The notes beneath the pieces are model-generated. The model made no database searches. It was not told the origin of the DNA and saw nothing but the letters and a program-made list of their open reading frames with translations. The position numbers and the translations under genes are program-made. Positions 1 through 62,026 of a DNA stretch of 64,000 nt are shown piece by piece. The stretch comes from Roseivirga sp. (lineage in GTDB: Bacteria; Bacteroidota; Bacteroidia; Cytophagales; Cyclobacteriaceae), in contig JAJCYM010000093.1 in assembly GCA_029262895.1 (NCBI GenBank), positions 1 through 64,000 of the forward strand, in the 5' to 3' direction. Positions within the stretch are counted from its first letter, which is position 1. Every line of letters begins with the position of its first letter.

Positions 1-2136
1 GTAGTTGAGTAGCTTTTTAATTTCGAATAAGTTTGCACCCAACACTTTCCTTATCCCCTTCTCTTTGATTCTCCGGCTTGCGGCTTATACGGAAATTCCA
101 AACAAGCGAATATATGCAACAATAGCCGCAAGCACAGTAAATGTGTTGATCATTGTAGACATCACTGTCTCTTGCTCATACTGCTTATCAAATCGATCGT
201 CCAGAAAAAAGTAGTCCGGATCAGATTTATCCGTAACAGCTTCAAAAGTCTTTTCAACCTCGGCAATTGTTCCCTTCAGGTTTTCAGATTTCAGCTTCAA
301 AATCAGGTTGCCATAGCCGTTCGGCTTTATTTTCCTAAACATCACCGCTTCTATCGGCTGCTTTTTGGAGATAAAATGGAAATCATTTACAAGACCTATC
401 ACCTTAAGTGACCTTCTCCCGTTTTTGATCTCATGCCCAATTGGATTATCAGAGATATCCAGTTTTTTGGCCGCTGTTTCATTAATTAGCACACTAAAAG
501 TTGTATCTGTGTCTGTCGATTGTAGGTTTCTCCCAGCCAATAAGTCCATCCCCATGGTTTCCAGATAGTTTTCGTCAACCGTAAAATTAAAGAAGGTGAA
601 GTCATGTCCATTAAAGGATTGTGAACTCCCCCAACTGGTTGGAATAGAGGATGCATGGGATATTTTTTCTACGTTGGAGAGCTTTTCGAGCTCGTTTTTC
701 AATACAGACGATTTTTCGATTAAGCCCCTCGCATTCAATTGCAATACCAGAACCCGTTCATTGTCGAACCCGAGGTTTTCATTTTGCATAAATTCCATTT
801 GCCTTCTGGCCACAAAAGCGCTGCATATCAAGGTCAGGAAAACTACTATTTGAAAAACCGTAATTGTATTTACCAGCCTATGCGATGAGAACATTCGCTT
901 GTTAGTTCCTCTTAACATGTCAGAGGCCTGCATTTTCATAGCTGCAAATGCCGGATATAATGAAGAAAGAAAGGCTAACAAAAGAGAGAAACCCAAGGCC
1001 TTGAGTATAAATTCAGGGTTTTCGCTCAGGCTGAATGCCATATCCCTGCCTAGCAATTCCTCCAACACGGGGAGCGTAAGTACTACTAGAAAGAGGGCAA
1101 TGAATGTACCGAGCATCACAAAAAAAGTAGATTCAAAAACAAATTGCCTCAGAAGTTGCCCGCGGTCAGCACCCACCACCTTTCTAACACCCATCTCCTT
1201 TGTTCTTTGGATAGACTGTGAAAGTGCTAGACTCACATAGTTGAAAATGGCGCAGATCAAGATAAACAATGCCACTCCGGAAAATATAAGGATGTACTGT
1301 CGATCTGATTTACCGCCCAAATTGTCCTTTACATCCAGAGAATAATGGATGTCATTCAAAGATTGGAGCGACATACTAGCATTGCTGAGATAGGTCAGAT
1401 TCTGCTTAAACAACGTGTCCAACTCTACGCCAACCTGCTCAGCGTCTGCCCCTTGATGAAGCAAAAAATAGGTGTGATCAAAATAACTCATATTCCAGCT
1501 TGTCAAGGCATTTCCACGAGATGCTTCAGCAGTGGCAAAGGGCAAAAGAATAGAATACTTGAGTGATGAATTTTCAGGAACGTCTTCAAATACACCGTCA
1601 ATCCGAAAGACGTCTGATTTGATTTTGAACTCTTGGTTCATTGCATTTTGAGCGGTTCCAAACATCTGTTCAGCCTTCGATCTGCTAATCAGTGCCGAGT
1701 TCTCTGTTTGAAAAGACGTCTCACGGCTCCCAAAGATATAGTCCAAGTCGAATATTTTGGTAAAGCCCAAATCCACAGATTTAGCAGATAAAGAGAAAAC
1801 AGAATCTGGATTAGAGGTCAAACTAGCTCTTTTTGTGAACCCCCCAAACCTGGAATAAGCCTCAATTCTTGAAATCTTGTCTCCGGCTTCGGGAGCCATG
1901 GCGGCTGTCATCCCTCCCAACTTTTCTACGCCATTGTCCTTCTCATTGGTCTGAATGACTCGGTAAACCCTGTCTTTATTGGAATGATACTGATCAAAGG
2001 ACAGTTCATTTTCGATAAACAGGTAAATGACGAAAAAACAAGACAGACCAATGCTCAATCCAAGAATATTGAGAAATGAATAAACCTTGTTCTTTTTTAT
2101 TTGACGTAACGCGAATCTGAAATAGTTTGTGAACAT
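1..2136 (-). pseudogene. P1: FtsX/MacB-type ABC permease, interrupted by an in-frame stop and cut by the window edge
   Basis: The reading frame starts at ATG 2136 and gives 683 residues: first helix about 20-42, periplasmic domain to about 280, coupling motif KEMGVRKVVGA near 314-324, three more helices, second periplasmic domain about 444-660 and the start of helix 6. It then meets TAA at 85-87. The same frame continues past the stop to the window edge with AASRRIKEKGIRKVLGAN, which is exactly the second coupling motif of the family, so the stop falls inside a gene that was once full length. Where other copies read AFIGLFG plus GY, this one reads AYIRLFG then V-stop, so a Gly is also lost. 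Closest to P2 (N-terminal 20 residues nearly identical), suggesting a recent duplicate that is decaying. A sequencing error, or a truncated but functional protein, is possible. Confidence 0.8.
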
Positions 2137-2237
2137 AGTTCTGAGTTATATGACTTTAAACAATTAGAAGGAGCTAAATCCCTGACCGTAAACAACTAGT
2201 CATCAATATAAATAATCTCAAGGACAACTCCAGAATG

Positions 2238-4586
2238 CTATTCGTCCTTTAGAATAAGAACCGGATTAATAAAATAAGCCCTAATACTGTGTACTGATAC
2301 TGCAATAAGCACCACAACAATGGCCGGGACAATCGCTACGAAGATGAGCCAAAACGGTATCTCAATTCTATAGGCGAATGAGTCTAGCCAATTGCCCATC
2401 AAATAGATTGTCAGTGGTACTGCCACAAGGATTGCAATTAGCAGTTTGTAGAAATTTGGCTGATTTAGCTTTCTTTGAATATCCAGGAAACCAGCACCTA
2501 GTACTTTGCGAATCCCCATTTCCTTCATCCTTTGGCTCACATTATATCCAGCAGTACCAAACAGGCCAATAAATGCCACTAGGGCCGCTAAAAAAGTAAA
2601 ACTGTCGATCATGGAGGTCATGAGCGTCTCATGCTTATACTGCTCATTGAACTTATCATCCATAAAAAAATAGTCCATATTAGCCTGATCAGTAATCGAT
2701 TCAAAGACAGACTGAACACTTGCCATGGTAGCTTTCAAGTCCTCAGATTTAAGTTTTAGAATTAAATTCCCACGAGTTCCGGACTTGATTCTTCGAAACA
2801 TAACTGCCTCAATCGGCTGTTTCTTTGAAATGAAATGAAAGTCGCTGACAACACCAATAATCGTACTTCCATTAACTTTCTTTCCCAGTGGATCATCCGC
2901 TATCTTCAATTTAGTTGCAGATGTCTCGTTGATCATAATATTTGAAATTGAATCAGGATCTGAGGGAAGAAAATTTCGACCGGCAACCAGCTTCATTCCT
3001 ATTGTTTCTATATACTGCTCATCAACATCGAAATTGTGAAAACCAAAGTCATATTCTGTAAAAAAGACGGTGCTTATCCAACTTGTTGGAATGGCATTCG
3101 CAAAGGAGATTCGTTCCACACTTGGCAGACCAGACAATTCATTCTTAAGGACGTCTGTTCTTTCAATTAAATGCTCGGCCACCAAGGGCAAAACTAAGAT
3201 GCTCTCATTGTCAAAACCCAAATTCTCTTTTTGCATAAATGCCATCTGTTTACGAGCAACAAAGGCGGAACAAATCAAAGTGAGAAAGACTACAATTTGA
3301 AAAACCGAAATGGCGCTGATCAATTTCTGAGAGCTGAAGAGGGAATAGCCCTTGCCTTTGAGCATTGAGACAGCGTGAAGTCGTAAACAGACGTAGGCAG
3401 GATAGAGGGAAGAAACTATGGCAATAATAAGCGCGAAAACAAACCCTCTCAAAATCAACTCAGGATTTTCAATAAAACCAGATTGAGTACTTCTGTCTAA
3501 AAATGCTTCCAACACCGGAATGGTAAACTCCACCAGAATAATGGAAACCACAGTTGCAATCATAACATAGAGAGCCGACTCAAAGATATATTGACCAAGC
3601 AATTGCCTGGCATTGGCACCCATTACCTTCCTCACTCCCATTTCTTTAACACGTGGTATGAGCTGTGAAAGGGTAAGGCTTATATAATTGAACACAGCAC
3701 AAGCCAAAATGAAGATGGCCACCAACCAGAATATCATGATGTACTGCCTATCGGACTTCCCTATAACGTCATCCTGAACATCAAGTGAAAAATGCACATC
3801 TTCCAAAGGTTGAAGCCAGAAAATGGGGGCCTGATTACCATAATCAGTTCGGTTGTTGAATAGCTTGTTGACTTCTTGCTCTATCTCCAAAGAGCTTGCT
3901 CCTTCTCTCAACAAGAAATATGACTCATCGTTGAGATTTACATACCAGTTTTTTATCCGACTTCCCCGTACCTTTTCAGCTGTCTTAAATGGCAGTAACA
4001 GTGCATACTTAAGAGAAGAAGTAATAGGTGGGTCCCTTACCACACCATCAATTCGAAATGCACTTTTACCAATTTTAAACTCTTGATTAATAGCTTGCTC
4101 AACACTTCCGAAAATTCTTCTAGCACTACTCTCAATAATAACAGCTGAATTTCCCGATTGAAAAGAACTCTCTCGACTCCCAATGATATAGTCCAAATCA
4201 AACATTTGATTGAAACCCAAATCCACAGAAGTTGCCCAGACCGTGAATGTGGAATCGGGTTTTTCCATCAGACTCACTTCCCTATTGCGGGAACCCACTC
4301 TAGAATATGTTTGAATTTGGGGAATCAGGTTTGTAGCTTCCGGAGCAAGAGCGGCAGTTAATCCACTCCTTTTTTCAGCACCTTCAGTACTTTGACTCGT
4401 TCGAACAACCCTGTAAATTCTGTCTCCATTTTCATGGTGTTTATCGTACCCAAGCTCATTATTGATAAATAGATAAATGACGAAGAAACTAGCCAAACCA
4501 ATACTCAGGCCAAGAATATTAAGTAATGAATAGACCTTGTTCTTTTTTATTTGGCGCAATGCAAACCTGAAATAATTGGACAACAT
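2238..4586 (-). CDS. P2: eight-helix ABC transporter permease (two FtsX/MacB_PCD halves)
   Basis: Inner-membrane permease of the MacB/LolCE type, 782 residues. Known members of this fold do not pump through a pore; ATP hydrolysis by a separate LolD/MacB-like ATPase moves the periplasmic domains. Visible order: helix 1 about 20-42, periplasmic domain about 45-280, helix 2, coupling motif KEMGVRKVMGA 314-324, helices 3-5, second periplasmic domain about 447-660 containing the family motif GVVSDFHF, helix 6, second coupling motif KEMGIRKVLGA 688-698, helices 7-8, tail NPVLILKDE. From the end of the second motif to the C-terminus is 84 residues. ATG 4586 is used; the stop of the dead copy upstream is 11 bp away, while 101 bp separate it from P1. 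Substrate unknown. Same subfamily as P1, P4 and, more distantly, P8. Confidence 0.93.
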   Translation of the reverse strand: MLSNYFRFALRQIKKNKVYSLLNILGLSIGLASFFVIYLFINNELGYDKHHENGDRIYRVVRTSQSTEGAEKRSGLTAALAPEATNLIPQIQTYSRVGSRNREVSLMEKPDSTFTVWATSVDLGFNQMFDLDYIIGSRESSFQSGNSAVIIESSARRIFGSVEQAINQEFKIGKSAFRIDGVVRDPPITSSLKYALLLPFKTAEKVRGSRIKNWYVNLNDESYFLLREGASSLEIEQEVNKLFNNRTDYGNQAPIFWLQPLEDVHFSLDVQDDVIGKSDRQYIMIFWLVAIFILACAVFNYISLTLSQLIPRVKEMGVRKVMGANARQLLGQYIFESALYVMIATVVSIILVEFTIPVLEAFLDRSTQSGFIENPELILRGFVFALIIAIVSSLYPAYVCLRLHAVSMLKGKGYSLFSSQKLISAISVFQIVVFLTLICSAFVARKQMAFMQKENLGFDNESILVLPLVAEHLIERTDVLKNELSGLPSVERISFANAIPTSWISTVFFTEYDFGFHNFDVDEQYIETIGMKLVAGRNFLPSDPDSISNIMINETSATKLKIADDPLGKKVNGSTIIGVVSDFHFISKKQPIEAVMFRRIKSGTRGNLILKLKSEDLKATMASVQSVFESITDQANMDYFFMDDKFNEQYKHETLMTSMIDSFTFLAALVAFIGLFGTAGYNVSQRMKEMGIRKVLGAGFLDIQRKLNQPNFYKLLIAILVAVPLTIYLMGNWLDSFAYRIEIPFWLIFVAIVPAIVVVLIAVSVHSIRAYFINPVLILKDE

Positions 4587-4597
4587 GAGTTTTGACT

Positions 4598-4917
4598 TTA
4601 TTCGTTTCTCAACACCTCAGCCGGATTGTAGTCATTCGCTAACAATGCTCTTCTCCTCTTCAACCCGGATAATGTAATAGACTTTCTATTACGGACGTAA
4701 CTCACTTCGAATCAGCCGCTTTGCTTCGCTTGCCTTTTCACCATAGCGGTGCTATGCTTTCAAAGTCAAACCGCGAGTCGCCTGAGCTTTAGCGGTGGCA
4801 CACTTCCTGATTCATTGCGATTTACGCCCTCATTACGACCGCTATTGCATTATTCGGGTTCAACAATGTAAATAAAATACTAAGGCAAATGACGGTGGCT
4901 ATTGCTAAAGTCCTGCC
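4598..4917 (-). pseudogene. Remnant of an additional permease C-terminus, split by the inverted-repeat element
   Basis: Read on the minus strand, 4598-4660 encodes KRRRALLANDYNPAEVLRNE followed by TAA. NPxxxLRNE is the permease tail seen in P3, P6 and P12, and the stop lies 11 bp before the P2 start, the usual spacing in this array. Beyond the 199-bp element, 4861-4917 can be read as a hydrophobic stretch (TLAIATVICLSILFTLL) resembling the last helix, preceded by a stop. So this looks like the 3' end of an eighteenth permease whose body was deleted and which carries an insertion. The tail match is strong; the upstream helix is only suggestive. Confidence 0.6.
4662..4860. repeat. 199-bp inverted-repeat (MITE-like) element
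   Basis: The ends AACCCGGATAATGTAATAG (4662-4680) and CTATTGCATTATTCGGGTT (4842-4860) are inverted copies matching at 17 of 19 positions. The inside is rich in smaller dyads: CATAGC/GCTATG around 4754, GAATCAG/CTGATTC, and GTAATAG/CTATTAC at the left end. No reading frame of note. The same termini recur as a 49-bp palindrome at 56261-56309. It sits inside a dead permease gene, as expected for an inserted non-coding element. No clear target-site duplication is visible and no transposase is present. Confidence 0.7.
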
Positions 4918-5015
4918 TCATAAATGCTTTTGTGCTGTTTCTACATACCATCTGAAAACAGGGGCATCACAGAACCCGCATTCAAATTTCAACTAGAAAG
5001 TTGACTATCTTTTTC

Positions 5016-7376
5016 CTACTCATTCCTGAGCACATCCACCGGGTTTGCCCGACTAGCCATCAAGGTTCTACTGATAATTATTAGCCCGGAAAAGACCAGA
5101 ACCAACACCACCGTCATAATACCGAATGAACTATCCAAATCAATCCTATTCGGATATTTATTCAACACCTGATTCATGAAAAAGTAGGAAAGTGGAATGG
5201 CGGCAAGGGTTGAAAAACTAATGACCCAAACATAAGGCTTGCCCAAGGTCATTAAGATTTGAGCAACCGAAGCTCCAAGCACCTTCCGTATTCCAATTTC
5301 TTTAATCTTTTGAGTGACTTGAAAAAGGACTAAAGAGAATAATCCGAATAAGGAGATAGTTACTATGGCTACGGTAACTCCGTTTATGACCAAAGTGATT
5401 CGTTCTAATTGGCTAAACCTCTTGGCGTATGCCTCATCAAGAAATTGGTATTTAAAGTAGTTTCTCGGATCATAATTGGACCAGAAGCTATTTATGCCTT
5501 TCAAAGTCTCACTCATGTTCTCGGGATTGACCTTAATCATAAATCTTGAGAACCTGTTTTTCGAAGGAAAAAGGATCAAGGGTCCGGTTCTTGAAACAGC
5601 ACCCTGAGCATAGAAATCATTCACAACACCAATCACTTCTTTCTTCAAACCAGACATTTCTATTGTTGAACCCACCGGGTTTTCTAACTGTAATCTCTTG
5701 GCGAGTTCGCGGTTGATGATGATGGCATTCTTAAAATCCGTTGCATGCGCCAGGTCAAAATTCCGACCTGATTCCAGATTTATCTCCATCATTGGCAAAA
5801 AGCCCTCATCCGTGTGCAGCCTTGATACATTCTTGACTACGATATCGTTATATTTGACCTTGCTTGACCCATCTATTCCGTTAGGCAAAGGACCTATAGC
5901 CACTGCCTCCACTCCACTCATCTTCTTCAATTGCTGAATTATATATTCAGAAGATCTTCGCATGGTGTCCGGAGTACCAATGGAAATGACCTGAGCCTTT
6001 TCAAAGCCAAGATCAAAGGTGGAGTAATGCCTGATTTGTGCATTGGCCATCAGCAAAACTGCAATCAGGACTGACGAAATGGTAAACTGTAGGAACAATA
6101 GAACGCTTCTATGTGAAAACCTTGACTTGCTGTAGCTCTGATCCCCTTTCAAAGCTTTAACCGGATTAAAACGAGCCAATAAAAAGGCTGGATAGAGTCC
6201 TGCAAGAAGTCCACACACCAACGTATATACCAATAATGTTAAGATGAGAGATAAATCACCATAATCAACTTGCAGCGTGACACCCAAAATTTCTGAGATG
6301 CTGGGAAGCATTATTTCAACCAGTATAACCGCTGAAATGAGACATAGGAAAGAGAAAAAAATGGTCTCTGCTAAAAACTGCAGTCTCAACTGGTTTTGTG
6401 AAGCACCATTGACTTTCCTCACCCCTACTTCTTTCGCCCTCGAAATAGACTTGGCAATAGCCATGTTCACATAATTGGCTAGTGCTATAAACAAGAGAAG
6501 GAATGCCAGCCCTGAAAATACATAAATGACATTTTTATCAGAACCTAGTCCTCGACTTCTATTATTCAAAATTGAGGAATTTCGATCCCAATAAGTCTCA
6601 GAAAAAGATCCCAAACCAACAGCTTCAAACGAACTTCCTTCTAAACTCTTTGATTCATATAGGCTCGATAGGTCATTTTCCAAACGTTGAATATCTGTGT
6701 CTGGAGCAACTTTCAGATAGACAAAAAATGAGTTTAGCTGCCAGGAGTTCAATCTTTCCGGGCTGGTTCCATGATCCAATGGCAATATAAAGTTTGGCTG
6801 AAATTGAGAATTAGCCGGGAACGGTTTCAAAACACCGGTTACTTTAAAGAGGCCTTTCTTGTCGATCGTCATAAAATTACCAACAACGTCTACCGTATTG
6901 AAATACCTCAAAGCCATTTCAGATGAGATGACAATGGCATTGGGCTCATCCAAGGCACTACTCTCCGATCCATGTAAAAAAGGAAAACTGAAGACGCTAA
7001 AAAATGAACTTCTGGCTTGGTAGTACTTTTCCTGAGTATATTCACTATCTCCATTCTTTACATAGATAGTCCCTGCCCCTGTTGACATAGCCGTGACAGC
7101 TTCCACACCTGGTATAGCCTCTTCAATTGCCTTTGACATAATCGCTGGTACAAAAGGATTTAAAAAGCCTCCCATCTCCTTTTTGTATTTCAGCTTTACA
7201 ATATGGATATCCTCCACCCGATCATGGAACTTGTCATAAGACAATTCATACTTCACATAGAGTCCAACCAGAATAAAACAAGCCATTGCGATTGATAGAC
7301 CCAGCAGGTTAATGATGGTGAAGACTTTATTTCTTCCTATTCCGCGAAGTATGGTTACGATATAGTTTTTAAGCAT
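5016..7376 (-). CDS. P3: ABC transporter permease, subfamily with P6
   Basis: 786 residues from ATG 7376. The start MLKNYIVTILRGI, first helix with MACFILVGLYV, then ELSYDKFHDRVEDIHIVKL are shared almost word for word with P6, the nearest paralogue. Coupling motifs are KEVGVRKVNGA (315-325; Asn in place of the usual Leu) and KEIGIRKVLGA (692-702); the tail is NPVDVLRNE. The periplasmic domains lack Cys and carry the FSFPFL and KVTGVLKPFP segments typical of MacB_PCD domains. It is flanked by larger gaps (94 bp to P4, 429 bp of debris and repeat to P2), so its transcription may be partly uncoupled. Substrate unknown. Confidence 0.92.
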   Translation of the reverse strand: MLKNYIVTILRGIGRNKVFTIINLLGLSIAMACFILVGLYVKYELSYDKFHDRVEDIHIVKLKYKKEMGGFLNPFVPAIMSKAIEEAIPGVEAVTAMSTGAGTIYVKNGDSEYTQEKYYQARSSFFSVFSFPFLHGSESSALDEPNAIVISSEMALRYFNTVDVVGNFMTIDKKGLFKVTGVLKPFPANSQFQPNFILPLDHGTSPERLNSWQLNSFFVYLKVAPDTDIQRLENDLSSLYESKSLEGSSFEAVGLGSFSETYWDRNSSILNNRSRGLGSDKNVIYVFSGLAFLLLFIALANYVNMAIAKSISRAKEVGVRKVNGASQNQLRLQFLAETIFFSFLCLISAVILVEIMLPSISEILGVTLQVDYGDLSLILTLLVYTLVCGLLAGLYPAFLLARFNPVKALKGDQSYSKSRFSHRSVLLFLQFTISSVLIAVLLMANAQIRHYSTFDLGFEKAQVISIGTPDTMRRSSEYIIQQLKKMSGVEAVAIGPLPNGIDGSSKVKYNDIVVKNVSRLHTDEGFLPMMEINLESGRNFDLAHATDFKNAIIINRELAKRLQLENPVGSTIEMSGLKKEVIGVVNDFYAQGAVSRTGPLILFPSKNRFSRFMIKVNPENMSETLKGINSFWSNYDPRNYFKYQFLDEAYAKRFSQLERITLVINGVTVAIVTISLFGLFSLVLFQVTQKIKEIGIRKVLGASVAQILMTLGKPYVWVISFSTLAAIPLSYFFMNQVLNKYPNRIDLDSSFGIMTVVLVLVFSGLIIISRTLMASRANPVDVLRNE

Positions 7377-7470
7377 AGCCTGGTTATTTGCATCTCAATG
7401 GAATGCGATGGATGAAATTATTTATTGCAGATTTAAAGCAATGTCTAGAATGCATTATCTATCCACGAGT

Positions 7471-9813: not shown

Positions 9814-9871
9814 AGTTTTGTGCCTATTCTCATTTCAATCAGTCATTGTTCTCAAAATTCAAGCTTATAAA

Positions 9872-12313: not shown

Positions 12314-12324
12314 AATCAGTGGGT

Positions 12325-14685: not shown

Positions 14686-14697
14686 AGGTGAATCAGT

Positions 14698-17076: not shown

Positions 17077-17088
17077 AGTCTTTGAGTT

Positions 17089-19440: not shown

Positions 19441-19452
19441 TGTCTTTGAGTC

Positions 19453-21828: not shown

Positions 21829-21839
21829 TAGTTCAGGGT

Positions 21840-24185: not shown

Positions 24186-24196
24186 TGCTTTGAGTT

Positions 24197-26590: not shown

Positions 26591-26600
26591 GATCTGAAAA

Positions 26601-28958: not shown

Positions 28959-28965
28959 AAGTTCT

Positions 28966-31371: not shown

Positions 31372-31383
31372 GATACTTTGAGT

Positions 31384-33780
31384 TTATTCAGTTCTTAGTG
31401 CTTGTACAGGATTTGTTCGGGCCGATTTTAAAGATTGATAAGCCATGGTAACCAGACTTATTAAGAGCATTGTGGCCAGTGGAATAAGAAAATACCAAAA
31501 ATGGAGCTCTATATGATAGGGAAATTCCTCCAGCCATTTATTCATTGAGTTGTAAGCGATTGGCAAAGCGATTAAGCCTGATAAAAAAATCAACCTTGTT
31601 ACTGAATGATTTAGTAACCAAACGATATCTGTAATCGAAGCACCTAATACTTTCCTTATTCCTATTTCCTTGATTTTCTGTTCTGCCATGAATAGCGACA
31701 ATCCAAACAGACCTAATGCAGCAATGAATACGGCCAAAACACTAAAGGCTGTAAAAATTCTGGACAACCTTTTTTCCCGATCCATTTTTGCCGAGAAGTC
31801 AGCATCCACAAAGCTATATTCAAACGGGTATTCATTGGAGAACTGGTCAAAAACCTCTTCCATTTGCCTGAGTGTTTCTTTTATATTGGTCTCTTCCACT
31901 TTGACTACGGCATGGCTAAAACCTTTGTCAGTTGCATAGATTGTGACTGGCATCAGCTCCTTTTTGGGAGAATCAAAGATGAAATCTTTCAAAACACCCA
32001 ATACTTTATGAGCCTTGGGATCATCATCGCTCTCCCCCTGCAATCTCCTTCCAACCGGATCATCCCATTTAAACATCTTTGCGGCTGTCTCATTGATCAG
32101 TACTCGCTGATTTCCAATGATATTTTCCGGTCGATCAAAGTTCTTACCTTCTAAAATTTCCAATCCAAGATTATCCACAAAATCTTTCTCCACATTCATC
32201 AATCCCACACTCATCTCCTCTTCCAGGCCGTCAATTTTTCGAAATAATGAAAGTGGACTCTCTGACATACTGAATGATGTGCCTGTGACTGAGTTGATTT
32301 TTGGGTTTCTCAAAAGCTCTGACTTAAAGCTCTGATAACTACTCACCATGTTTTTATCCTTCAATGGAACGGTTATCAATTGTTGGGCATCATAGCCCAA
32401 ATTAAAATCAGAGAGGAACCTGAATTGTAAGGAAACGATCAATGTTACAGCAAAAAGTCCTATGCAAACAATAAATTGAAAACTGACCAAAACCTGCCTG
32501 AACCTTAAGCCCCCTTTTCCCCTTGTTAGTTTACCATTGAGTATGTCAATTGCCTTAAATTTTGAAAGGACAAATGCAGGGTAAATTCCTGCAAGCGTTC
32601 CAATAGTCAGAATAAACCCTGTAATAGTGAGCAGGGTCAATGGGTTGAGATAATTGATTGATATGTTTCGGTCGGTCATCGCACTAAAGGAGGGCAACAT
32701 TATTTCAAGTAGGCAAATGGCCAATAACGTGGCGGTTGCCGTCATAAAAATTGATTCGATGAAGAATTGACCCAGCAGCCCCTTTTTGCTCCCTCCAACC
32801 GTCTTTCTAATACCTACCTCTTTTGCTCTTTTCGTATGCCTGGCAGTAGACATATTCATATAGTTGATAATGGCAATGAGTAGTATAACCACTGCAATTA
32901 GCATGAACAGATTCAAATATTTTCTATCTCCAGACTTGGTAGCTTGGTATGACTTTACTTCACTGAAGTAGACTTCAGGAAGCGGTTCGATCTTAGAAAT
33001 GTCATTAGTCCAGTGAGCGCTAAGTGCCAGATTAATTTTTGACTCTAAAGCATGACTATCTTCTATTAATTCCGGAGTAACCAGATACGTACTAAAAGCA
33101 ACAAGTCCCCAATCCAGCATTCTCTCTCTGTTTTCCTTGGGAAAATATTTTAAGAGATTTCCGTAAGCCTTGCCAACGTTATAAAATGAAATCAGGTAGT
33201 TGAATTGAAAAATCGTATTCTCCGGTAGTTCATAGACACCTTTTACTACAAACTCATGGAAGTCAGAAATGGATAGGGTTTGACCGACATAATCCTCGTG
33301 AAATCCGTAAAGTCGTTCAGCCTCCTTTCTTGACAATAATATATCATTTGGGCCAAGCCTTACGCTCCTAAAATCTCCATTGATCAAGGAAAAATCGATC
33401 GATTCGAAAAAGCCCGAATCTGTCAAATAAATGGCTTCACCAAGAAACCTTTTTTCTCCAACCGTGACCACTTTTCCAGTAGCAGTACCGACACGAAATA
33501 CCTGTTCTAAATCCGGAACTTGATCAAGCAAAACCTCCGCCACTCCCCCGGCCATGCTTTGTTGATAAGTGATCTCGGCCTTAGAAGTATCTGCAGAGAG
33601 TAATCTAAAAGTCTTATCGCTTTTTGCATGAAACTTGTCAAAGCTGGATTCTTCTTTGACAAATAGCGTCAGCATAGCAAAACAACAAATACCAATCGCA
33701 AGGCCCGTAATGTTAATTATAGAATAGGCCTTTTGTCTTTTAAAATTTCGTAATGCTATGTTGAGATAACTTCTAAACAT
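31384..33780 (-). CDS. P14: ABC transporter permease, subfamily with P16
   Basis: 798 residues from ATG 33780. P14 and P16 share a coupling motif ending in Gly-Gly in the first half (KEVGIRKTVGG, 320-330), which is found nowhere else in the array, and both have a long insertion before helix 2 with the phrase (V/D)YFSE. Second motif KEIGIRKVLGA (704-714), tail NPVQALRTE; the ALRTE or VLRTE ending is confined to P14, P15 and P16. Spacer to P15 is ACTCAAAATATC. Confidence 0.92.
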   Translation of the reverse strand: MFRSYLNIALRNFKRQKAYSIINITGLAIGICCFAMLTLFVKEESSFDKFHAKSDKTFRLLSADTSKAEITYQQSMAGGVAEVLLDQVPDLEQVFRVGTATGKVVTVGEKRFLGEAIYLTDSGFFESIDFSLINGDFRSVRLGPNDILLSRKEAERLYGFHEDYVGQTLSISDFHEFVVKGVYELPENTIFQFNYLISFYNVGKAYGNLLKYFPKENRERMLDWGLVAFSTYLVTPELIEDSHALESKINLALSAHWTNDISKIEPLPEVYFSEVKSYQATKSGDRKYLNLFMLIAVVILLIAIINYMNMSTARHTKRAKEVGIRKTVGGSKKGLLGQFFIESIFMTATATLLAICLLEIMLPSFSAMTDRNISINYLNPLTLLTITGFILTIGTLAGIYPAFVLSKFKAIDILNGKLTRGKGGLRFRQVLVSFQFIVCIGLFAVTLIVSLQFRFLSDFNLGYDAQQLITVPLKDKNMVSSYQSFKSELLRNPKINSVTGTSFSMSESPLSLFRKIDGLEEEMSVGLMNVEKDFVDNLGLEILEGKNFDRPENIIGNQRVLINETAAKMFKWDDPVGRRLQGESDDDPKAHKVLGVLKDFIFDSPKKELMPVTIYATDKGFSHAVVKVEETNIKETLRQMEEVFDQFSNEYPFEYSFVDADFSAKMDREKRLSRIFTAFSVLAVFIAALGLFGLSLFMAEQKIKEIGIRKVLGASITDIVWLLNHSVTRLIFLSGLIALPIAYNSMNKWLEEFPYHIELHFWYFLIPLATMLLISLVTMAYQSLKSARTNPVQALRTE

Positions 33781-33792
33781 GATATTTTGAGT

Positions 33793-36147
33793 TTATTCTG
33801 TTCTTAATACTTCTATTGGATTTCTTTTCGACCCCAAATAGCCATGAATGCCCAGAATGGTCAGAGATAAAATCATAACACTCCCGGCAGCTATCGAGAA
33901 TTGTGGTAAAAGGTTGGTCATTCGGTAAGGAAATCCATTCAACCAGTTATTAATCAAATAGTGACAAATGGGTATAGCAATCAGCATTGCCGTTATGATT
34001 AACAGCAGGAATTTCTGACCTAGTATTCTGATTAATTGCAAGGAAGTTGCACCCAATACTTTGCGAATCCCCAATTCCTTCTCGCGCAGTTGACTTTCAA
34101 AAGAAGTGAGTGAAAAAAGACCGAGAAGTGCTATAACGATGATCATGGAAGTAAGCCAATTGAAGATTCGCACTAAGGTTTCTTCACGAGTATAGGCATC
34201 ATTGTAAAACGTGGCCACTTCCGTAGTCTTAAAAGGTTGGAGAGTTCCAAAACTACTCCATACTTTCTGCACTGCCGCCATTGCCTCCTCTCTTTGACCC
34301 TCCTTAAATTTAAAATGAAGATTGGTAATTTGACTTTGGTCAGCGGTCACGAGGATTGGGCCGATCTCACTTTTTGCTGAAGCATAATGAAAATCATTCA
34401 TTACCCCAACAATAGTATACCGATCGGAAATTCTCTTTCCAATCGGATCTTCAAGACCCAGTTCATCTACGCCAGTTTTATTGATTAATACGGCCTCATT
34501 AAGTTCTGATTGATCAACCTGATTGAGCCCCCTTCCCTGAAGAATTTCTATTTCCAGTAACTCAGTAAAGTCCAAATCTGCCGATCCCTTCCTAAAATGA
34601 ACTTGTTTCTTTTCTCCGTTTATATCCATCGGCACAATAAAGCCTAACCCACTTTTAGGCAAGGGCGAACCACTAACTCCAGAGAGTTGAGGTATTCTTT
34701 CGAGTTCTGTTTTTAACTCTTGATATTTTCCGCCAAATCCCCCTTCAAACACCTTTATGTTATGGACATTTTCGACATTATATCCTAAGTCCAGGTTAAT
34801 CATATATTTCGCCTGACTTCTGATAATCAGTGCTCCTGATAAAAGGCCTACACAAATCAAAAATTGAAATACCAGAAGTGATTTCCTCATTATTGACGCC
34901 TTTGAATGAGGCATCATCCCTTTTAATAAGCTAACGGTATTGAATGACGAGGCTACAATGGCAGGATAGATTCCCGAAATAGCGACTGTTAAAATCAAGG
35001 CACCAATCGGAATTAAGAGCAATTGAGGGTTTTCCAGAAAAGCAAAGTCAAGCCTTTTTCTTAGAATTAAATTGATGGTGTCTAAACTCAACTCTAAAGC
35101 AATAACCGCCACCATTAGCGCTATGGAAGCAATGGCGGCTGTTTCACTAAGCAAAATTGAAAGTAACCGGAATTTACTTGCTCCAACCACTTTGCGAATT
35201 GCCAAACTCTTCGTTCTGGAAAAAGCCTGTGCAGTATTAAGGTTGATGTAATTGAAACAAGCCACCAGCAATAGCAGGCTACCTACCAACGAAAAGATGA
35301 TGAGGTAGTCTCTTTGACCTCCAAACATTTCTGTTTCAGGGCCATAGGTTTCACCATTAAGATACAAGTCGCCAAAAGGTGAGAAGTTTATATTGTTGGC
35401 ATCACCAACCCTTTTTCTATTCTTCAGAATCATCTGAGCATCTGCTTTTAACTGCTCAAGTGAGTAATTTTCAGTGATTAAAACATAATTAGATCCATAA
35501 GCCCTACCCCAACTATCCTTATACCATTTATAAGGGGCTGCGTTGAAATTCATGGCAAGCAACATATCGAACTGCAGATGTGAATTGCCAGGAATAGGTT
35601 CCAAAACACCGCTCACTTTGAATGTTCCACTATTTTCGAATTCCACAAACTCACCAATAGGGTTTGACCCTCCGAAATGTTTGTCGGCCAATTCTGAAGA
35701 AAGAATTAGAGTATTCGGTTCAGAAAGTGCGCTGGATACATCTCCCCATTTCAGTGAAAAATCAAATACTTTAAAAAGTGATGGTTCTGAGTAGTACAGC
35801 CGCTCGACTTCAAACCACTCCTCCCCTTGCCGGTACTTATCTTTAATTGGAAAACTGAGGTTTACTACTGCTTCAACTCCCGGACTTTCAGAACTAAGTG
35901 CCTCTCGTAATGCAAATGGCGGTACATGTGTCAAGGTTTCTCCAGTACTCGTCTTCAATTTGAGATGTGAGATATAGATTCTATCAACCTTGCTATGCCA
36001 TTTGTCATGAGTCAATTCATCTTGAACATAGAGTGTAGTGACCATAAAACAGAACATTCCCATGGCCAGCCCAAGAATGTTCACCAGGGAGAAAAATCTT
36101 TCCCGTTTAAGCCTTCTTACAAGTTGTTTTAACAATCTAATTGACAT
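33793..36147 (-). CDS. P15: ABC transporter permease with a degenerate first coupling motif
   Basis: 784 residues from ATG 36147. Subfamily of P10 and P12 (VQDELTHDKWHSKVDRIYIS; GVLEPIPGNSHLQFDM). Its first cytoplasmic motif is KSLAIRKVVGA (313-323), lacking both Glu and Gly as in P12; the second is KELGIRKVLGA (690-700). Tail NPIEVLRTE matches the ending of its neighbours P14 and P16 rather than that of P12, which would fit local gene conversion of the 3' end. 7 bp to P16, 12 bp to P14. Confidence 0.92.
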   Translation of the reverse strand: MSIRLLKQLVRRLKRERFFSLVNILGLAMGMFCFMVTTLYVQDELTHDKWHSKVDRIYISHLKLKTSTGETLTHVPPFALREALSSESPGVEAVVNLSFPIKDKYRQGEEWFEVERLYYSEPSLFKVFDFSLKWGDVSSALSEPNTLILSSELADKHFGGSNPIGEFVEFENSGTFKVSGVLEPIPGNSHLQFDMLLAMNFNAAPYKWYKDSWGRAYGSNYVLITENYSLEQLKADAQMILKNRKRVGDANNINFSPFGDLYLNGETYGPETEMFGGQRDYLIIFSLVGSLLLLVACFNYINLNTAQAFSRTKSLAIRKVVGASKFRLLSILLSETAAIASIALMVAVIALELSLDTINLILRKRLDFAFLENPQLLLIPIGALILTVAISGIYPAIVASSFNTVSLLKGMMPHSKASIMRKSLLVFQFLICVGLLSGALIIRSQAKYMINLDLGYNVENVHNIKVFEGGFGGKYQELKTELERIPQLSGVSGSPLPKSGLGFIVPMDINGEKKQVHFRKGSADLDFTELLEIEILQGRGLNQVDQSELNEAVLINKTGVDELGLEDPIGKRISDRYTIVGVMNDFHYASAKSEIGPILVTADQSQITNLHFKFKEGQREEAMAAVQKVWSSFGTLQPFKTTEVATFYNDAYTREETLVRIFNWLTSMIIVIALLGLFSLTSFESQLREKELGIRKVLGATSLQLIRILGQKFLLLIITAMLIAIPICHYLINNWLNGFPYRMTNLLPQFSIAAGSVMILSLTILGIHGYLGSKRNPIEVLRTE

Positions 36148-36154
36148 TGATCAT

Positions 36155-38518
36155 TTATTCTGTTCTTAATGCATTGACCGGATTAGTTCTTGCCGACTTA
36201 ATGGACTGGTTTAAAAGAATCAACCAAATCATGGCTAATAGCGCCACCAAGGGCAACAGATATAACGACAACCCTAAATCGATTCTATTATTAAAGTCTT
36301 TCAACCAGGATTCCATTGCCATGTGAACTAGCGGAAGAACAATTATGGCCACCACAGCCACAAGCACGGTAGTTCCACGGTTGAGTAACCATACAATATT
36401 GCCTACTTTGGCACCCAAAATTCTTCTGATTCCAATCTCCTTTATTCTCTGCTCTGCGATGTAAATCGAAAGCCCTAGAATGCCCAAGCCAGCAACAAAA
36501 ATTGCCAATAAGCTAAAGACTGAAAACACCTGGGAAAGCTTCTGTTCTTTCTCATACTTCTTGGCAAAGTCATCATCCAGAAAAGTGTATTCAAATGGAT
36601 AGGCCTGAGCGAATTTTTCGAAAGTGTTTTTAATATAATCCAGAGATTCAGACATGTTATTTGACGACAGGCGTATATAGGCTTGCTCAAAATCCTTGTC
36701 GCTTGAAACCATCATTAACGGGGCAATCGCCTCTTTGGCAGAACCAAACAGAAAATCATTTGTGACTCCAATAATATCGTATTTCAATTCTCGGATTTTC
36801 TTGCTCAAAGGGTCATCCCAGCCAAAATTTTCCTGCGCACTTTTATTGATGAGGACCTTGCGTTCATTAAGTTCCTGATTAGCCACATTGAAGCCTTCTC
36901 CATTTGCCAAGGTAATTTGCATGTCCTGAAGAAATGTCTTTTCGACCTGCATAACTGCAATAGGCACCCTTTCTTCCATTCCTTCCGGCTGTATATAGAA
37001 GCTACTCGATTGTGTGAACACAGAAAACGCAGCTCCCGAAACCCCTTTGATCAAAGGGCTTTGCATTAGTTCTGCCTTGAAACTCTCATAGCTCTCTTGA
37101 ATCGCTTTGTCTTTCGTAGACACAGATACGACAAGCTCATCATTGAAGCCCTTATCAAGCTGTTCCATATGCTTGAATTGACTAAAAACAATCCCGGTAA
37201 CGGTCATCAGGCCAAGACAAATAAAGAATTGGAAGGCCACGAGTACCTGTCTGAATGAAAATCTACCTCTACCCTTTGCCATGTTGCCAGCTAGAATTTG
37301 GATTGGATTAAACTTGGAAAGATACAGTGCCGGATAGGCCCCTGATACAAACCCGACAAGCACTGTGCTACCCAAAAGGAAGGTAATAGTTAATGGATCT
37401 GAGTAGTTAATATCGATGGGCTTTCCTACAAACTCATTTAAGGTTGGAATAGCCATTTCTGCAAGGCAAATGCCCAAAACCATGGATACGAAGGCGATCA
37501 CAAGCGACTCTGTAAGAAACTGTTTAAAAATCTGTTGACGACTTCCGCCAACGGTTTTTCTTATGCCTACTTCTTTTGAACGCTTCGCCTGTCTGGCAGT
37601 GGCCATATTCATGTAATTGACAGCAGCAACAAGGAGGATAATAATGGCAATCGCCAAATACAGTTGTGCGTATTGTTTATTCCCACGTTTTCCGAAGGGG
37701 AATGGACTCAACTCTGAGAAATAAACATCTGTTAAGGGTAGCAATTTTACGAATCTGCCGCGATGTGGAAGAAGTGCTTCTGCCATCTTCTTTTGTGCCT
37801 CTTCGACAGATGAATTTTCATCGCTTAGTTCAACATATAATGGGAATGCATTCAAAAAGCCCCAATCGAATACACTGCGATCTCCTCCCCAACCTTCGAA
37901 AGGTTTTTGGGCTCCCTTAAAAGAGAGTACATATTCAAGGTCAAAGTGGGTTTCCTCTGGTAAATCAGCAAAAACGTCCTTCACAATGAATGTTCCCAAG
38001 TCAACAACCTCGAGTTCCTGTCCAATGGCAGCATCTACTCCTCCGTAAAGCTTGGTCGCTTCCTTTTCAGAAATGAGAATATCACTAACCGACATATCAA
38101 GTTCATCAGCCGCCCCGCTCAGTAATGGGAAGTCAAACATTTCAAAGGCTTCCTCATCGGCAAAATGCACCTTATCGATCAAGTAGCGCTTATTGTCAAC
38201 CTTAACTACTTGGTTGGTCTGCGTGAGAAATCTCGAAGCCCTTACCACTTCGGGGACTGATTCTAAAAAAAGAGGTCCTGTTGGAGCCTGAGTTTGTATT
38301 TGATATTCTGTACTGGTTTGAGCAGTATCGCGTAGAAAAACCTGGTAGATACGATCTTTTTTAGAATGAAATTCATCATAACTAAACTCTTGCTTGACGA
38401 AAATTGTGAGCAAAAGAAAACATGCCATTCCAACGGCAAGCCCCAAAACATTGATTGCCGTATAAGCCTTATTTTTGGATAAATACCTTAGGGAGGTTCT
38501 TAGATAATTCTTAAACAT
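36155..38518 (-). CDS. P16: ABC transporter permease, subfamily with P14
   Basis: 787 residues from ATG 38518. An in-frame ATG exists ten codons earlier (38548), but the family start MFKNYL is at 38518 and the ten extra residues are unlike any other copy. First motif KEVGIRKTVGG (315-325) with the Gly-Gly shared only with P14; second KEIGIRRILGA (693-703) with Arg for Lys; tail NPVNALRTE. It is the first gene of the tightly packed run. The 141 bp before it contain a short repeat (38621-38640) but no sigma-54 match, so it is either read through from P17 or has an ordinary promoter not recognised here. Confidence 0.91.
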   Translation of the reverse strand: MFKNYLRTSLRYLSKNKAYTAINVLGLAVGMACFLLLTIFVKQEFSYDEFHSKKDRIYQVFLRDTAQTSTEYQIQTQAPTGPLFLESVPEVVRASRFLTQTNQVVKVDNKRYLIDKVHFADEEAFEMFDFPLLSGAADELDMSVSDILISEKEATKLYGGVDAAIGQELEVVDLGTFIVKDVFADLPEETHFDLEYVLSFKGAQKPFEGWGGDRSVFDWGFLNAFPLYVELSDENSSVEEAQKKMAEALLPHRGRFVKLLPLTDVYFSELSPFPFGKRGNKQYAQLYLAIAIIILLVAAVNYMNMATARQAKRSKEVGIRKTVGGSRQQIFKQFLTESLVIAFVSMVLGICLAEMAIPTLNEFVGKPIDINYSDPLTITFLLGSTVLVGFVSGAYPALYLSKFNPIQILAGNMAKGRGRFSFRQVLVAFQFFICLGLMTVTGIVFSQFKHMEQLDKGFNDELVVSVSTKDKAIQESYESFKAELMQSPLIKGVSGAAFSVFTQSSSFYIQPEGMEERVPIAVMQVEKTFLQDMQITLANGEGFNVANQELNERKVLINKSAQENFGWDDPLSKKIRELKYDIIGVTNDFLFGSAKEAIAPLMMVSSDKDFEQAYIRLSSNNMSESLDYIKNTFEKFAQAYPFEYTFLDDDFAKKYEKEQKLSQVFSVFSLLAIFVAGLGILGLSIYIAEQRIKEIGIRRILGAKVGNIVWLLNRGTTVLVAVVAIIVLPLVHMAMESWLKDFNNRIDLGLSLYLLPLVALLAMIWLILLNQSIKSARTNPVNALRTE

Positions 38519-38620
38519 AACCTTGAGCTTTGAACGGTTACTTTTCAAGGACTATACCAAACTTATTTAACTGTATATCAGTTAGTTACATAACAACAGA
38601 AATCATCATTTGGTCGCCAC

Positions 38621-38640
38621 CGAACTTTAACGTCCGTCAG
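38621..38640 (+). repeat. Short repeat shared with the region beyond P17
   Basis: CGAACTTTAACGTCCGTCAG here resembles CGAACTTTACCGTCCGCTGG at 41165-41184 (3 to 4 mismatches in 20), in the same orientation, so P17 is flanked by direct copies. The right-hand copy forms a full hairpin; this one does not. Function unknown. Confidence 0.5.
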
Positions 38641-38659
38641 TGAACACTTGCTCATATGA

Positions 38660-41062
38660 TCACGAATCGCGAAGAATATCGGCTGGATTGGTCTTGGACA
38701 CTTTCAGAGAATACCATCCCGCAGACAGGATAGTAGCACCCAGCATGATCACGCCTGCAACTGCAAAGAGCCATACCGGTTGGTTGGTTCTATAGGCAAA
38801 CTGTGATATCCATGAGTCTACAACCCTGAATACAACGGGCAAAGCAATCAGTATTGATATACTCATTATGATTATAAACAACCGGTTTTGAAGTCCAAAG
38901 AGATGACCCGTTCCAGCCCCAAGGACCTTACGTATACTTATCTCCTTAAGCCTTTCTCGCCCATAAAATACAGACATCGCAAAAACTCCGGCAAAAGCTA
39001 TCAGGCAAACTCCAGCGCCCAAAATGCCAGTCATTTGCATCATCTTGATTTCGGAAGAATAGAGTCGGCTGTGCTCCTCCTCAAGATCTCTCAGGACAAA
39101 AGACTCGGAAGGTTCGCGTTCCCACCACATTTCCTGAAGCCTTTGAATTAGCTCGCCCACATTGGTATTCTCTGAATATCGAATAGAATAATGCGCTCTT
39201 CCATTGCTCAAACTCATTGGTATGAATAGCATTGGTGGAATGGCTTCGCTTACAGAGCTAAAATGAAAATCCGTTACCGTACCTTCTTGTATAATATACC
39301 CTGGTTTTGCCTTACCATAGAAAGTAGGTAATCGTTTGCCAATAGGCTCATTGTCAAAGGAATTCAGTGCTGTTTCATTGAGCAACCCTACTTTGCTTTC
39401 CGTGCAGAACAATGAAATCACATCATCATCAAAATTGGTTGAGATGTTATAGAAATCGAAGAAATGGCAGTCAATGCCTATATTCATCAAACTCACTTTC
39501 TCCCATCCATCTCTGAATCCGGCACGCCTCAAATCATTTACTTCCAAAGCACGCACGGGATGTGCGTCAGAGAGTGCAATATCAAGGATTTCAGGCATTG
39601 CCATAAGCTGGTCTTTAAACGTCTGTATGGTTGCTTCATCACCTCCTTGAAACCAACTTGACTGGAGTACTAAAGTGTTTTTAAAGGCATAGCCAGGATC
39701 TTTGGACAACATAAACTCAAGCTGCCGATTCATGAAAAGCATCGTGGATATAATCCCAAAAGCAATAAAAAACTGAAATGTTAATAATGCCTTTCTAATG
39801 AATGATTTAGACTTTCCATTTCCACTAAAGGAATTGAAAAGGCCGGATATTTTAAAATTGGAAACGATCACAGAAGGATAAATTCCTGCTACAAGTCCTA
39901 CAATAGAAGTAAATACCAGAAGAATACCATACGTCCAAATACCAAACACGCCAATCGTTAATTTTCTTTCTACAAATCCACTATACAGAGAGACCAACGA
40001 TTCTATCAAAATCAACGCTATGACAAAGGAAATTAAACTCAACAAAAGTGATTGGCTCAAGGATTTCTTCACGAGTTGACCCTTCCTGGCTCCGATAATT
40101 TTATGGATGGCAATTTCCTTGCTGCGCTGCAGAGCCACGGCCAGGGAAATATTGCCAAAATTAGCTATAGCAACAGCTAACAAGCATATGGAAATCACAA
40201 CCAGCCAGACCACCAGTCGCTTATCGGCCTTGGGATGGTAAGGTTTAGCAATATCTAAATTGCTAAAGTGATAATCTTCAAAGGGTTCTAATATGAGATT
40301 TGCCTTTTTATTAAAGAATCCCTGGTCTTTCGCCAACTGAGTCAACTCGCTCTCCAGATTCTCAACATCGGAATTAGAGTTTAGGGACATAAAAACCTGG
40401 AACATTATATAGCCCTTGCTTTCAAAATAAGGTTTAAAATGGGGGATAGATTTCATGGTTTCCATTGAAATCATAAAGCGAGGATCCAGGGAAGAATTAG
40501 AGGGGAAGTCCTTGTACACCCCAATAATCTCGAACTCCTCATCCCCAACCAGCAACTTCTTTCCAACAGCATGTTCTGCATCAAATAGTTTCTTATAGAC
40601 TGATTCGCTAATCAAAACTGTGCCTGGAACGTCAAACATCTCAAACCCTCCACTGATCGGTTTCACGCCAAACATGTCCAGAAAACCCCGCTCCACGTAC
40701 CAAAAACCTTTTTCATTAATGGCCTTTTCTCTTTCCCCCTTTGTTCTGACCAAATCGGAGACATAAGAATTATTATAGGCTCTCACCATCGACTCTATAG
40801 AAGAGTAGTTTTCCAAATAATCAGCAGACAGGATAAAAGGATGACTGCTGCTGGTAGAAGATAAATCTGATGCTGAACCAGTGAGTACTAGCCTATGTAT
40901 TTTTTCACTTTCAGGATAGCTCTGGTCAAATGTATATTCATGAATCAGATAGATTGCCGTAAGAAAAACAAAGCAAAAGGCAATAGCCAGACCTAGAACG
41001 TTGGTCCATGTGTAAATCAAGTTTTTCCTGAGGCCTCTTAAGATTACGCGAATGTTTTTCAT
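38660..41062 (-). CDS. P17: promoter-proximal, divergent ABC transporter permease
   Basis: 800 residues from ATG 41062. The most divergent copy: it begins MKNIRVILRGLRKNLIYTW, its first motif is KEIAIHKIIGA (315-325; Ala for Gly, His for Arg), the second KEISIRKVLGA (706-716), and the tail is NPADILRDS, ending in Ser rather than Glu. The C-terminal 84-residue spacing is preserved. It is separated from P16 by 141 bp, unlike the tight spacing elsewhere, and is flanked by a short direct repeat. It lies directly downstream of a strong sigma-54 promoter match, with a predicted untranslated leader of about 15 bases. Substrate unknown. Confidence 0.92.
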   Translation of the reverse strand: MKNIRVILRGLRKNLIYTWTNVLGLAIAFCFVFLTAIYLIHEYTFDQSYPESEKIHRLVLTGSASDLSSTSSSHPFILSADYLENYSSIESMVRAYNNSYVSDLVRTKGEREKAINEKGFWYVERGFLDMFGVKPISGGFEMFDVPGTVLISESVYKKLFDAEHAVGKKLLVGDEEFEIIGVYKDFPSNSSLDPRFMISMETMKSIPHFKPYFESKGYIMFQVFMSLNSNSDVENLESELTQLAKDQGFFNKKANLILEPFEDYHFSNLDIAKPYHPKADKRLVVWLVVISICLLAVAIANFGNISLAVALQRSKEIAIHKIIGARKGQLVKKSLSQSLLLSLISFVIALILIESLVSLYSGFVERKLTIGVFGIWTYGILLVFTSIVGLVAGIYPSVIVSNFKISGLFNSFSGNGKSKSFIRKALLTFQFFIAFGIISTMLFMNRQLEFMLSKDPGYAFKNTLVLQSSWFQGGDEATIQTFKDQLMAMPEILDIALSDAHPVRALEVNDLRRAGFRDGWEKVSLMNIGIDCHFFDFYNISTNFDDDVISLFCTESKVGLLNETALNSFDNEPIGKRLPTFYGKAKPGYIIQEGTVTDFHFSSVSEAIPPMLFIPMSLSNGRAHYSIRYSENTNVGELIQRLQEMWWEREPSESFVLRDLEEEHSRLYSSEIKMMQMTGILGAGVCLIAFAGVFAMSVFYGRERLKEISIRKVLGAGTGHLFGLQNRLFIIIMSISILIALPVVFRVVDSWISQFAYRTNQPVWLFAVAGVIMLGATILSAGWYSLKVSKTNPADILRDS

Positions 41063-60287: not shown

Positions 60288-60289
60288 GC

Positions 60290-60334: not shown

Positions 60335-60361
60335 GAATTCCAGTCAGATATAGCCTCCTTC

Positions 60362-61304: not shown

Positions 61305-61305
61305 A

Positions 61306-62016: not shown

Positions 62017-62026
62017 GATTAAAACC

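Follow-up and report, generated by a model that had tools for sequence, protein, structure and literature searches.

Acidobacterial duplicated orphan permeases (ADOPs) are described as orphan permeases and are defined without an adjacent ATP-binding cassette (ABC) ATPase. The darobactin exporter DarBCD has one permease per system, and group II energy-coupling factor (ECF) importers share one EcfA-EcfA'-T module among many S-components. MacB-type, or type VII, ABC transporters have been reviewed (PMC5985334). Copies labelled ADOP by RAST number 28 and 33 in two Dyadobacter genomes (PMC11573002), and an acidobacterial metagenome-assembled genome has 102 ADOP copies, of which 80 are transcribed (PMC10564751). 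Here, a tandem array of related permease genes from Roseivirga sp. (assembly GCA_029262895.1) is described. The array lies in the first 64 kb of contig JAJCYM010000093.1 (C93), a stretch referred to below as the window, in a genome of 5.79 Mb and 102 contigs; G, C and L labels are used for genomes, contigs and loci. Comparison with related genomes makes it likely that the array permeases are driven by a shared energising set encoded elsewhere, consisting of an ATPase (ATPase A), an HlyD adaptor and a TolC-type channel on contig C62 and, very likely, a second ATPase (ATPase B) on contig C79.

Composition and family assignment of the permease array

An earlier reading of the window (the original prediction) described 17 tandem FtsX/MacB-type permeases lacking an ATPase, adaptor or channel. 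The list of open reading frames (ORFs) and domain scans bear this out, as 17 consecutive minus-strand permease ORFs fill positions 85-41062 and none of them encodes an ATPase, adaptor or channel. A size of about 780-813 amino acids (aa) had been given for every gene and applies to 16; the gene at 85-2136 encodes 683 aa and is a normal-type permease with its frame broken near the contig end. Intergenic gaps are 7-12 bp in 11 of 16 cases and 58, 94, 101, 111 and 429 bp in the remaining five. The array may extend further, since position 1 is the end of the contig.

ADOP (TIGR03434) was the best NCBIfam match for all 17 permeases (202-286 bits against a cut-off of 622.3) and DarB (NF038008) the second best (74-168 bits against a cut-off of 700); none of 67 scored candidates in the genome reached the ADOP cut-off. 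The window permeases are remote relatives of the ADOP orphan permeases, well under the family cut-off. Both have two FtsX halves in one chain of about 800 aa and form large paralogous families. The difference is that a cognate ATPase/adaptor set is proposed here, whereas none is named in the available parts of the texts of PMC11573002 and PMC10564751.

Pfam scanning of a single permease identified two FtsX stretches and MacB_PCD, and FtsX matches were found all along the array. Profile comparison returned 14 solved relatives, including MacB (5lil, 5gko, 5nik), YtrF, LolF and LolE. Eight hydrophobic peaks are evident in the family alignment, together with two periplasmic domains that span roughly 230 and 210 residues, and the region between transmembrane helices (TM) 2 and 3 aligns to the MacB coupling region (5lil). 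Permease 8 served as topology reference, with coupling loops at about 303-333 and 682-706 and boundaries set by hand. Two FtsX stretches, two coupling regions and eight hydrophobic peaks correspond to an internally duplicated FtsX permease, and the type VII features of FtsX, MacB_PCD and coupling helices are present, the domains in one protein and the helices by alignment. On these alignments, the permease is a predicted pseudo-dimer, that is, a fused pair of MacB-like permeases.

ATPase A and its probable partners

A genome search for LolD/MacB-type ATPases, as proposed in the original prediction, found nine (E<=1e-30), of which ATPase A is the likely motor. This DarD-like ATPase is encoded between an HlyD adaptor and a TolC-type channel at C62:85857-89468, a locus with no permease. 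DarD (NF038007) is its best NCBIfam match, with 283 bits for ATPase A and 235 for ATPase B against an equivalog cut-off of 375. In all 14 genus relatives examined (of 18), a regulator/kinase pair lies opposite HlyD-ATPase A-TolC with no labelled permease (L029-L042), and in the window genome two genes lie between this pair and the trio. The two largest genus genomes (G010, locus L030; G008, locus L031) have two HlyD genes before ATPase A. A single ATPase A was found in this genome and in 16 of its relatives (90-97 % identity), making 17 of the 19 genus genomes. The permeases do not match it one to one, numbering at least 33 in 17 of the 19 and at least 54 in 12 of those 17.

The permease partner was indicated by neighbourhoods in other genera. 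HlyD loci from named genomes were compared over 10 kb to each side, using the best 80 of at least 584 relatives (Chitinophaga, Dyadobacter, Spirosoma, Runella, Larkinella, Saprospiraceae and others). ATPase A came directly after HlyD in 79 of these 80 loci. Among the 74 loci with at least 3 kb beyond ATPase A, a permease followed within 1.5 kb in 56 and further off in one, and TolC followed without a permease in 11. A divergent regulator was present upstream of HlyD in 55 of 74 loci with room for one. HlyD and ATPase A are followed by one window-type permease in G024 and G028, by two in G036 and by two and a partial third in G034. Ten further genomes from the order have between 2 and 20 permeases after ATPase A, interspersed with other genes; examples are G080 (20 within 71 kb), G053 (16), G138 (15) and G093 (13). 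For G129 and G090, the position of ATPase A was taken from the genome-wide ATPase search and not from the ORF list. Because HlyD-ATPase A-permease loci occur in other genera, the window arrangement appears to be the split form of a system that is clustered elsewhere.

The clustered loci resemble DarBCD in combining HlyD, an ATPase and a permease of about 780 aa. A DarBCD-like operon of adaptor, ATPase and duplicated permease is absent from Roseivirga, where these genes are split, but they are neighbours in other genera; the present system also differs from DarBCD in having tens to more than 100 permeases and a second ATPase. Like MacAB-TolC and other type VII transporters (MacB, LolCDE, FtsEX, YbbAP), it has FtsX/MacB_PCD domains, a MacB-aligned coupling region and putative HlyD and TolC partners. 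In this genus it differs in its unfused ATPase, its tandem pseudo-dimeric permease and the separation of motor genes from permease genes, the adaptor and TolC being encoded beside ATPase A at C62 and not beside the array.

The distribution of both components was also compared in 118 genomes from the order, with thresholds of E<=1e-85 for ATPase A and E<=1e-100 for the permease profile. Both were present in 54 genomes, ATPase A only in none, permeases only in six and neither in 58 (Fisher P=3e-27, without correction for common descent). Double-negative genomes were found within positive groups (G072 as against G058 and G110; G054 as against G036, G068, G118 and G130). In G017 (80 % complete), ATPase A had no match although 5 permeases and an ATPase B-like match were found; the HlyD gene there is at a contig edge. 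The proposal that one ATPase encoded elsewhere serves the copies, one of the options in the original prediction, is the most likely in view of these neighbourhoods and this co-occurrence.

An alternative is that the other resident ATPases (LolD-like at C91:7.5 kb, MacB-like at C48:106.6 kb, FtsE and YbbA) are each preferred by permeases of their own and that the C62 trio serves some other permease. The presence of nine such ATPases leaves room for this, as does the C48 ATPase, which has no labelled FtsX permease directly beside it. However, G009 (84 % complete) has no window-type permease (E<=1e-60) and neither ATPase A nor B, and keeps five other ATPases of the same type (among them MacB-, LolD- and FtsE-like groups by score order, in the authors' grouping). 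Furthermore, motif-bearing ATPase ORFs of <330 aa in the 80 HlyD loci comprised 79 A-like, 15 B-like and one other. Separate motors are thus regarded as unlikely.

A second ATPase

ATPase B is also DarD-like and is encoded at C79:21981-22655 beside one 804-aa permease; a permease of the C79 type is in the same stretch as ATPase B in 13 of 15 genus genomes examined. Of the 80 HlyD loci, 15 also contain a B-like ATPase clustered with HlyD and ATPase A, for example in the order HlyD-A-B-permease in Saprospiraceae and HlyD-A-permeases-B-TolC in Chitinophaga. ATPase B had been considered as a rival motor but was recast as a second subunit because it is found inside these clusters. It was detected in 28 of the 118 genomes (E<=1e-80), all of them positive for ATPase A. 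At least eight permeases were scored in 24 of the 28 B-positive genomes compared with two of the 32 B-negative permease genomes (P=1.6e-10, not corrected for ancestry); equivalently, ATPase B was present in 24 of 26 genomes with at least eight scored permeases and in four of 34 other permease genomes.

The two ATPases differ at fixed positions in a comparison of 94 A and 30 B sequences, many of them close relatives. LSGGQQQ is followed by R in every A sequence (94 of 94) and by L in every B sequence (30 of 30), and the D-loop position (ADEPTGNL?) is D in all 94 A sequences and H (25) or Q (5) in the B sequences. All sequences of both types keep Walker A; the H-loop is likewise kept in every B sequence (30 of 30) and in all but one of the 94 A sequences. 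Two unlike ATPases would fit a permease with two unlike halves, which points to a putative A/B heterodimer.

Mean identities were calculated for 66 pairs from 12 genus genomes. The values were 93.1 % for ATPase A, 93.9 % for ATPase B, 90.0 % for the trio response regulator, 86.1 % for the MacB-like ATPase, 79.2 % for the trio kinase, 79.1 % for FtsE, 74.6 % for HlyD, 66.4 % for the C79 permease (partial sequences) and 60.0 % for TolC. The idea that ATPase A is uniquely conserved as a hub was dropped since ATPase B is equally conserved, though FtsE and the MacB-like ATPase are less so.

Conservation of the coupling surfaces

Regional conservation was assessed with an alignment of 103 sequences, comprising 16 window permeases, 32 others of the same genome and 55 ATPase-linked permeases. 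Within the window set, the two coupling loops had mean identities of 0.44 and 0.52, and the N-terminus and C-terminal tail had 0.44 and 0.45; the periplasmic domains reached only 0.23-0.24, and the TM3-TM4 loop (0.19) and TM8 (0.19) were lower still. The coupling loops were 0.47 and 0.55 identical between window and ATPase-linked permeases. These regional identities indicate that the presumed ATPase-facing parts have been held alike while the periplasm-facing parts have diverged.

These observations bear on the alternative that the array is free of ATPase, its permeases acting as receptors or scaffolds in signal transduction or membrane organization and no longer as ABC subunits. In its favour, the genus array stretches contain no labelled ATPase, five of these arrays having other genes on both sides (G001, G011, G013, G016 and G018), and ADOP proteins are known as orphan permeases. 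The original prediction had named an ATPase in or adjoining the array as a finding that would count against it; none was labelled in the window array or these five complete arrays, but many other genera start the array with an ATPase, and an adjacent ABC ATPase is present at related permease clusters there. Against loss of the ATPase partnership, conservation is highest in the N-terminus, both coupling loops and the C-terminal tail; these regions resemble their counterparts in ATPase-linked permeases as closely as they resemble one another across the window set, and include a region that aligns to MacB. A purely ATPase-free role is therefore very unlikely. Assigning window genes to particular ATPase-linked permeases was attempted with the 103-sequence tree and abandoned, the tree being too deep.

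Number, size and age of the arrays

Four further arrays are present in the same genome, with nine genes on C30 (running off the contig), 11 on C99 (starting inside a gene), ten on C41 (ending within the contig) and four on C5 (running off the contig). The last piece on C30 covers model positions 1-268 and the first piece on C99 covers 275-786, so the two are probably a single 19-gene array. At least 105 ADOP-type permeases are present in the genome, 50 in five arrays (counted by hand, with the gene split between C30 and C99 counted once) and 55 elsewhere (the non-array part of the 67 scored). Permeases of a second, longer size class lie mostly outside the arrays; L019:1287-3863 (C30) is one of these frames, which measure about 860-930 aa.

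The original prediction regarded the scale of the array as unusual and proposed a comparison with related genomes, which did not bear out this view. Regulator-headed arrays have seven permeases in G001, G011, G016 and G018, eight in G013, at least nine in G005 (contig end) and at least 16 in G002, giving a range within the genus from seven to at least 17. G008 and G010 each have 20 permeases in the stretch examined, 18 of them uninterrupted, with no labelled regulator there, and runs of 13-20 permeases with a few other genes between them occur in other genera. The window array is not exceptional in this company.

The variation in array size would fit an array that arose by gene-dosage amplification, or that is a decaying cluster of paralogues, with no distinct roles for its members, as would two pairs of window permeases at 57 % identity, the frame break in the last gene and a possible C-terminal remnant in the 429-bp gap. 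However, identity to one array member was 24-42 % with an all-pair mean of 28 % among the 16 full-length members, which argues against recent amplification, and 16 of the 17 frames are intact. Most members appear to be old, kept lineages because 12 of the 16 full-length members are closer to a member of another Roseivirga array than to paralogues in the five arrays of this genome, the paralogue set used for this comparison. The best cross-species match reaches 76 %, in one example compared with 34 % for the closest array paralogue. Permeases 8, 12, 15 and 16 (starting at 21840, 12325, 5016 and 2238) are the exceptions, and margins are small for permeases 4 and 3 (31384 and 33793). This suggests that the array consists mostly of long-separate lineages with gain and loss, and amplification or decay is a highly improbable account of it.

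Regulation of the arrays

A divergent NtrC-type response regulator and a histidine kinase lie next to the array head, with a sigma-54-type promoter motif facing the array (Table 1). The same kind of regulator and kinase is present at the heads of the C30 and C5 arrays, and the C41 regulator is cut by the contig start. The window genome's own trio has the promoter motif TGGCATTCTTGTTG at L018:5859, before the conserved HlyD start. There is one rpoN match in the genome, and the strict sigma-54 consensus occurs at 20 sites genome-wide compared with four for the reversed pattern. The relaxed pattern TGG[CT][AT]N6TTG was found in 55 of 76 regulator-to-array or regulator-to-HlyD intergenic regions, as against 1.8 expected by shuffling; control patterns with a spacing of 5 or 7 gave 8 and 6 matches and the reversed pattern gave 4. 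This set comprised intergenic regions below 800 bp at loci with an adjacent labelled regulator and excluded L089-L100. By hand count, nine of ten array heads carry the relaxed motif, as do 11 of the 14 trio heads in the genus. Enrichment of sigma-54 sites at COG0577 permeases has been reported in Bacteroidia, with no mention of arrays or shared ATPases in the available part of that text (PMC12316311).

The layout of the window array suggests a single long operon with one sigma-54-type promoter ahead of it, so co-expression of its members is probable. Any switching would then have to take place among arrays, and several of these are equipped with a regulator of their own. The description of the array as a switchable set in the original prediction is therefore not supported as stated; that account also omitted the divergent regulator pair, the second ATPase and the ATPase-headed arrays of many other genera.

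Proposed mechanism and evidence against it

In the proposed mechanism, the array supplies the permease halves of MacB/DarB-type (type VII) ABC machines. Each permease would be a pseudo-dimer with two FtsX halves, eight membrane helices and two periplasmic domains, and its two cytoplasmic coupling helices may bind an A/B (or A/A) ATPase dimer. ATP-driven motion would be relayed across the membrane to the periplasmic domains, which would hand a periplasmic or membrane-extracted substrate to HlyD/TolC, both direction and substrates being predicted. Specificity would differ by periplasmic domain, with coupling surfaces staying alike so that one motor fits all. Each array would be expressed from a sigma-54 promoter through its divergent response regulator/kinase, a pair paralogous to that at the motor locus.

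The partnership of the array permeases with a MacB/LolD-type ATPase rests on genomic association, and several observations weigh against it. The co-occurrence counts are not phylogenetically independent, as many of the compared loci come from close relatives. Six genomes (G049, G062, G084, G087, G099 and G114) have permeases without an ATPase A passing the strict cut-off, although for all except G087 a genome of the same genus passes it. Neither a permease nor TolC follows ATPase A in six of the 74 loci, and in G023 and G033 neither a permease nor a labelled TolC follows HlyD-ATPase. In the tree, long distances (1.7-3.1) separate the array permeases from the ATPase-linked ones, and the array/ATPase-linked label changes just five times over the 103 tips; because of this distance the partnership is drawn through the family and not per orthologue. 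By eye, the first coupling loop is atypical in permeases 1, 3 and 6. The high conservation of ATPase A is matched by that of ATPase B. The strict sigma-54 pattern was present at only two of 11 array heads and at 0 of 17, 0 of 8 and six of 49 HlyD heads, and the relaxed pattern was chosen after the strict one failed. With these points taken into account, a shared energising set remains the likely reading.

A bolder proposal, for which the chances are close to even but slightly unfavourable, is a combinatorial type VII ABC system in which more than 100 exchangeable pseudo-dimeric permeases, expressed in regulator-controlled sets, would draw on an A/B heterodimer and a single adaptor and channel. 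With the same reserve, this may be viewed as ECF-group-II-like logic in a MacB-type machine, with ATPase A canonical and ATPase B carrying a fixed, non-canonical change in the D-loop and another beside the signature. The likeness is one of logic only, namely two different ATPases in one module and many substrate subunits. ECF systems are importers with unrelated membrane parts, whereas the machine proposed here is MacB-type and probably an exporter, and the whole permease is swapped. No shared ATPase for such permeases was described in the titles and abstract openings of the literature covered, with bioRxiv and most subscription papers outside that coverage.

Other features of the window

Coordinates are given in Table 1. 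The end of the 429-bp gap, directly before the gene for permease 16, reads NPAEVLRNE-stop and by eye resembles a permease C-terminus; it is possibly the remnant of a lost permease, and the gap may be a deletion scar or an inserted element. Near the kinase, a large FAD-oxidase-type gene (1016 aa) occupies 45414-48464, and frames of 972-988 aa are in a similar place, judged by position alone, at the arrays of G001, G005, G013 and G018. At 56610-57484, two genes that overlap by one base resemble an Xre/MbcA/ParS-type antitoxin and a RES-domain toxin. A second tandem paralogue array lies at 57715-63999. Its seven complete ORFs encode 236-256 aa and all belong to DUF6090 (PF19578); one more ORF, outside the family scan, runs past the window end.

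Table 1. Features of the permease array and its upstream region in the window
Feature	Position	Strand	Basis or remark
Permease 17 (last in transcription order)	85..2136	-	683 aa; match runs on to position 4, one internal stop
Permease 16	2238..4586	-	782 aa; 57 % identity to permease 17
429-bp gap	4587..5015	-	Sequence and fold (z -2.74); strongly structured
Permease 15	5016..7376	-	786 aa
Permease 14	7471..9813	-	780 aa
Permease 13	9872..12313	-	813 aa
Permease 12	12325..14685	-	786 aa; 57 % identity to permease 15
Permease 11	14698..17076	-	792 aa
Permease 10	17089..19440	-	783 aa
Permease 9	19453..21828	-	791 aa
Permease 8	21840..24185	-	781 aa; topology reference
Permease 7	24197..26590	-	797 aa
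Permease 6	26601..28958	-	785 aa; first coupling loop atypical by eye
Permease 5	28966..31371	-	801 aa
Permease 4	31384..33780	-	798 aa
Permease 3	33793..36147	-	784 aa; first coupling loop atypical by eye
Permease 2	36155..38548	-	797 aa from TTG start; in-frame ATG further on
Permease 1 (array head)	38660..41062	-	800 aa; best paralogue just 26 %; first coupling loop atypical by eye
Sigma-54-type promoter TGGCATTGAGATTGC	41089..41103	-	Motif; faces array, 26 bp upstream of array-head ATG
NtrC-type response regulator (receiver, sigma-54 activation, Fis HTH)	41258..42631	+	Domain scan; divergent from array
Histidine kinase (PAS, HATPase_c)	42612..43976	+	Domain scan

Implications

In Bacteroidota and Acidobacteriota, duplicated permeases classed as orphans make up large and unexplained families of paralogues. 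The proposal of a dedicated motor set makes the term 'orphan permease' testable, as loss of one ATPase gene should cause all permeases to fail together. The two-ATPase module, if true, would be a MacB-type counterpart of the shared-motor importers, and the arrays would be sets of periplasmic specificities under sigma-54 two-component control.

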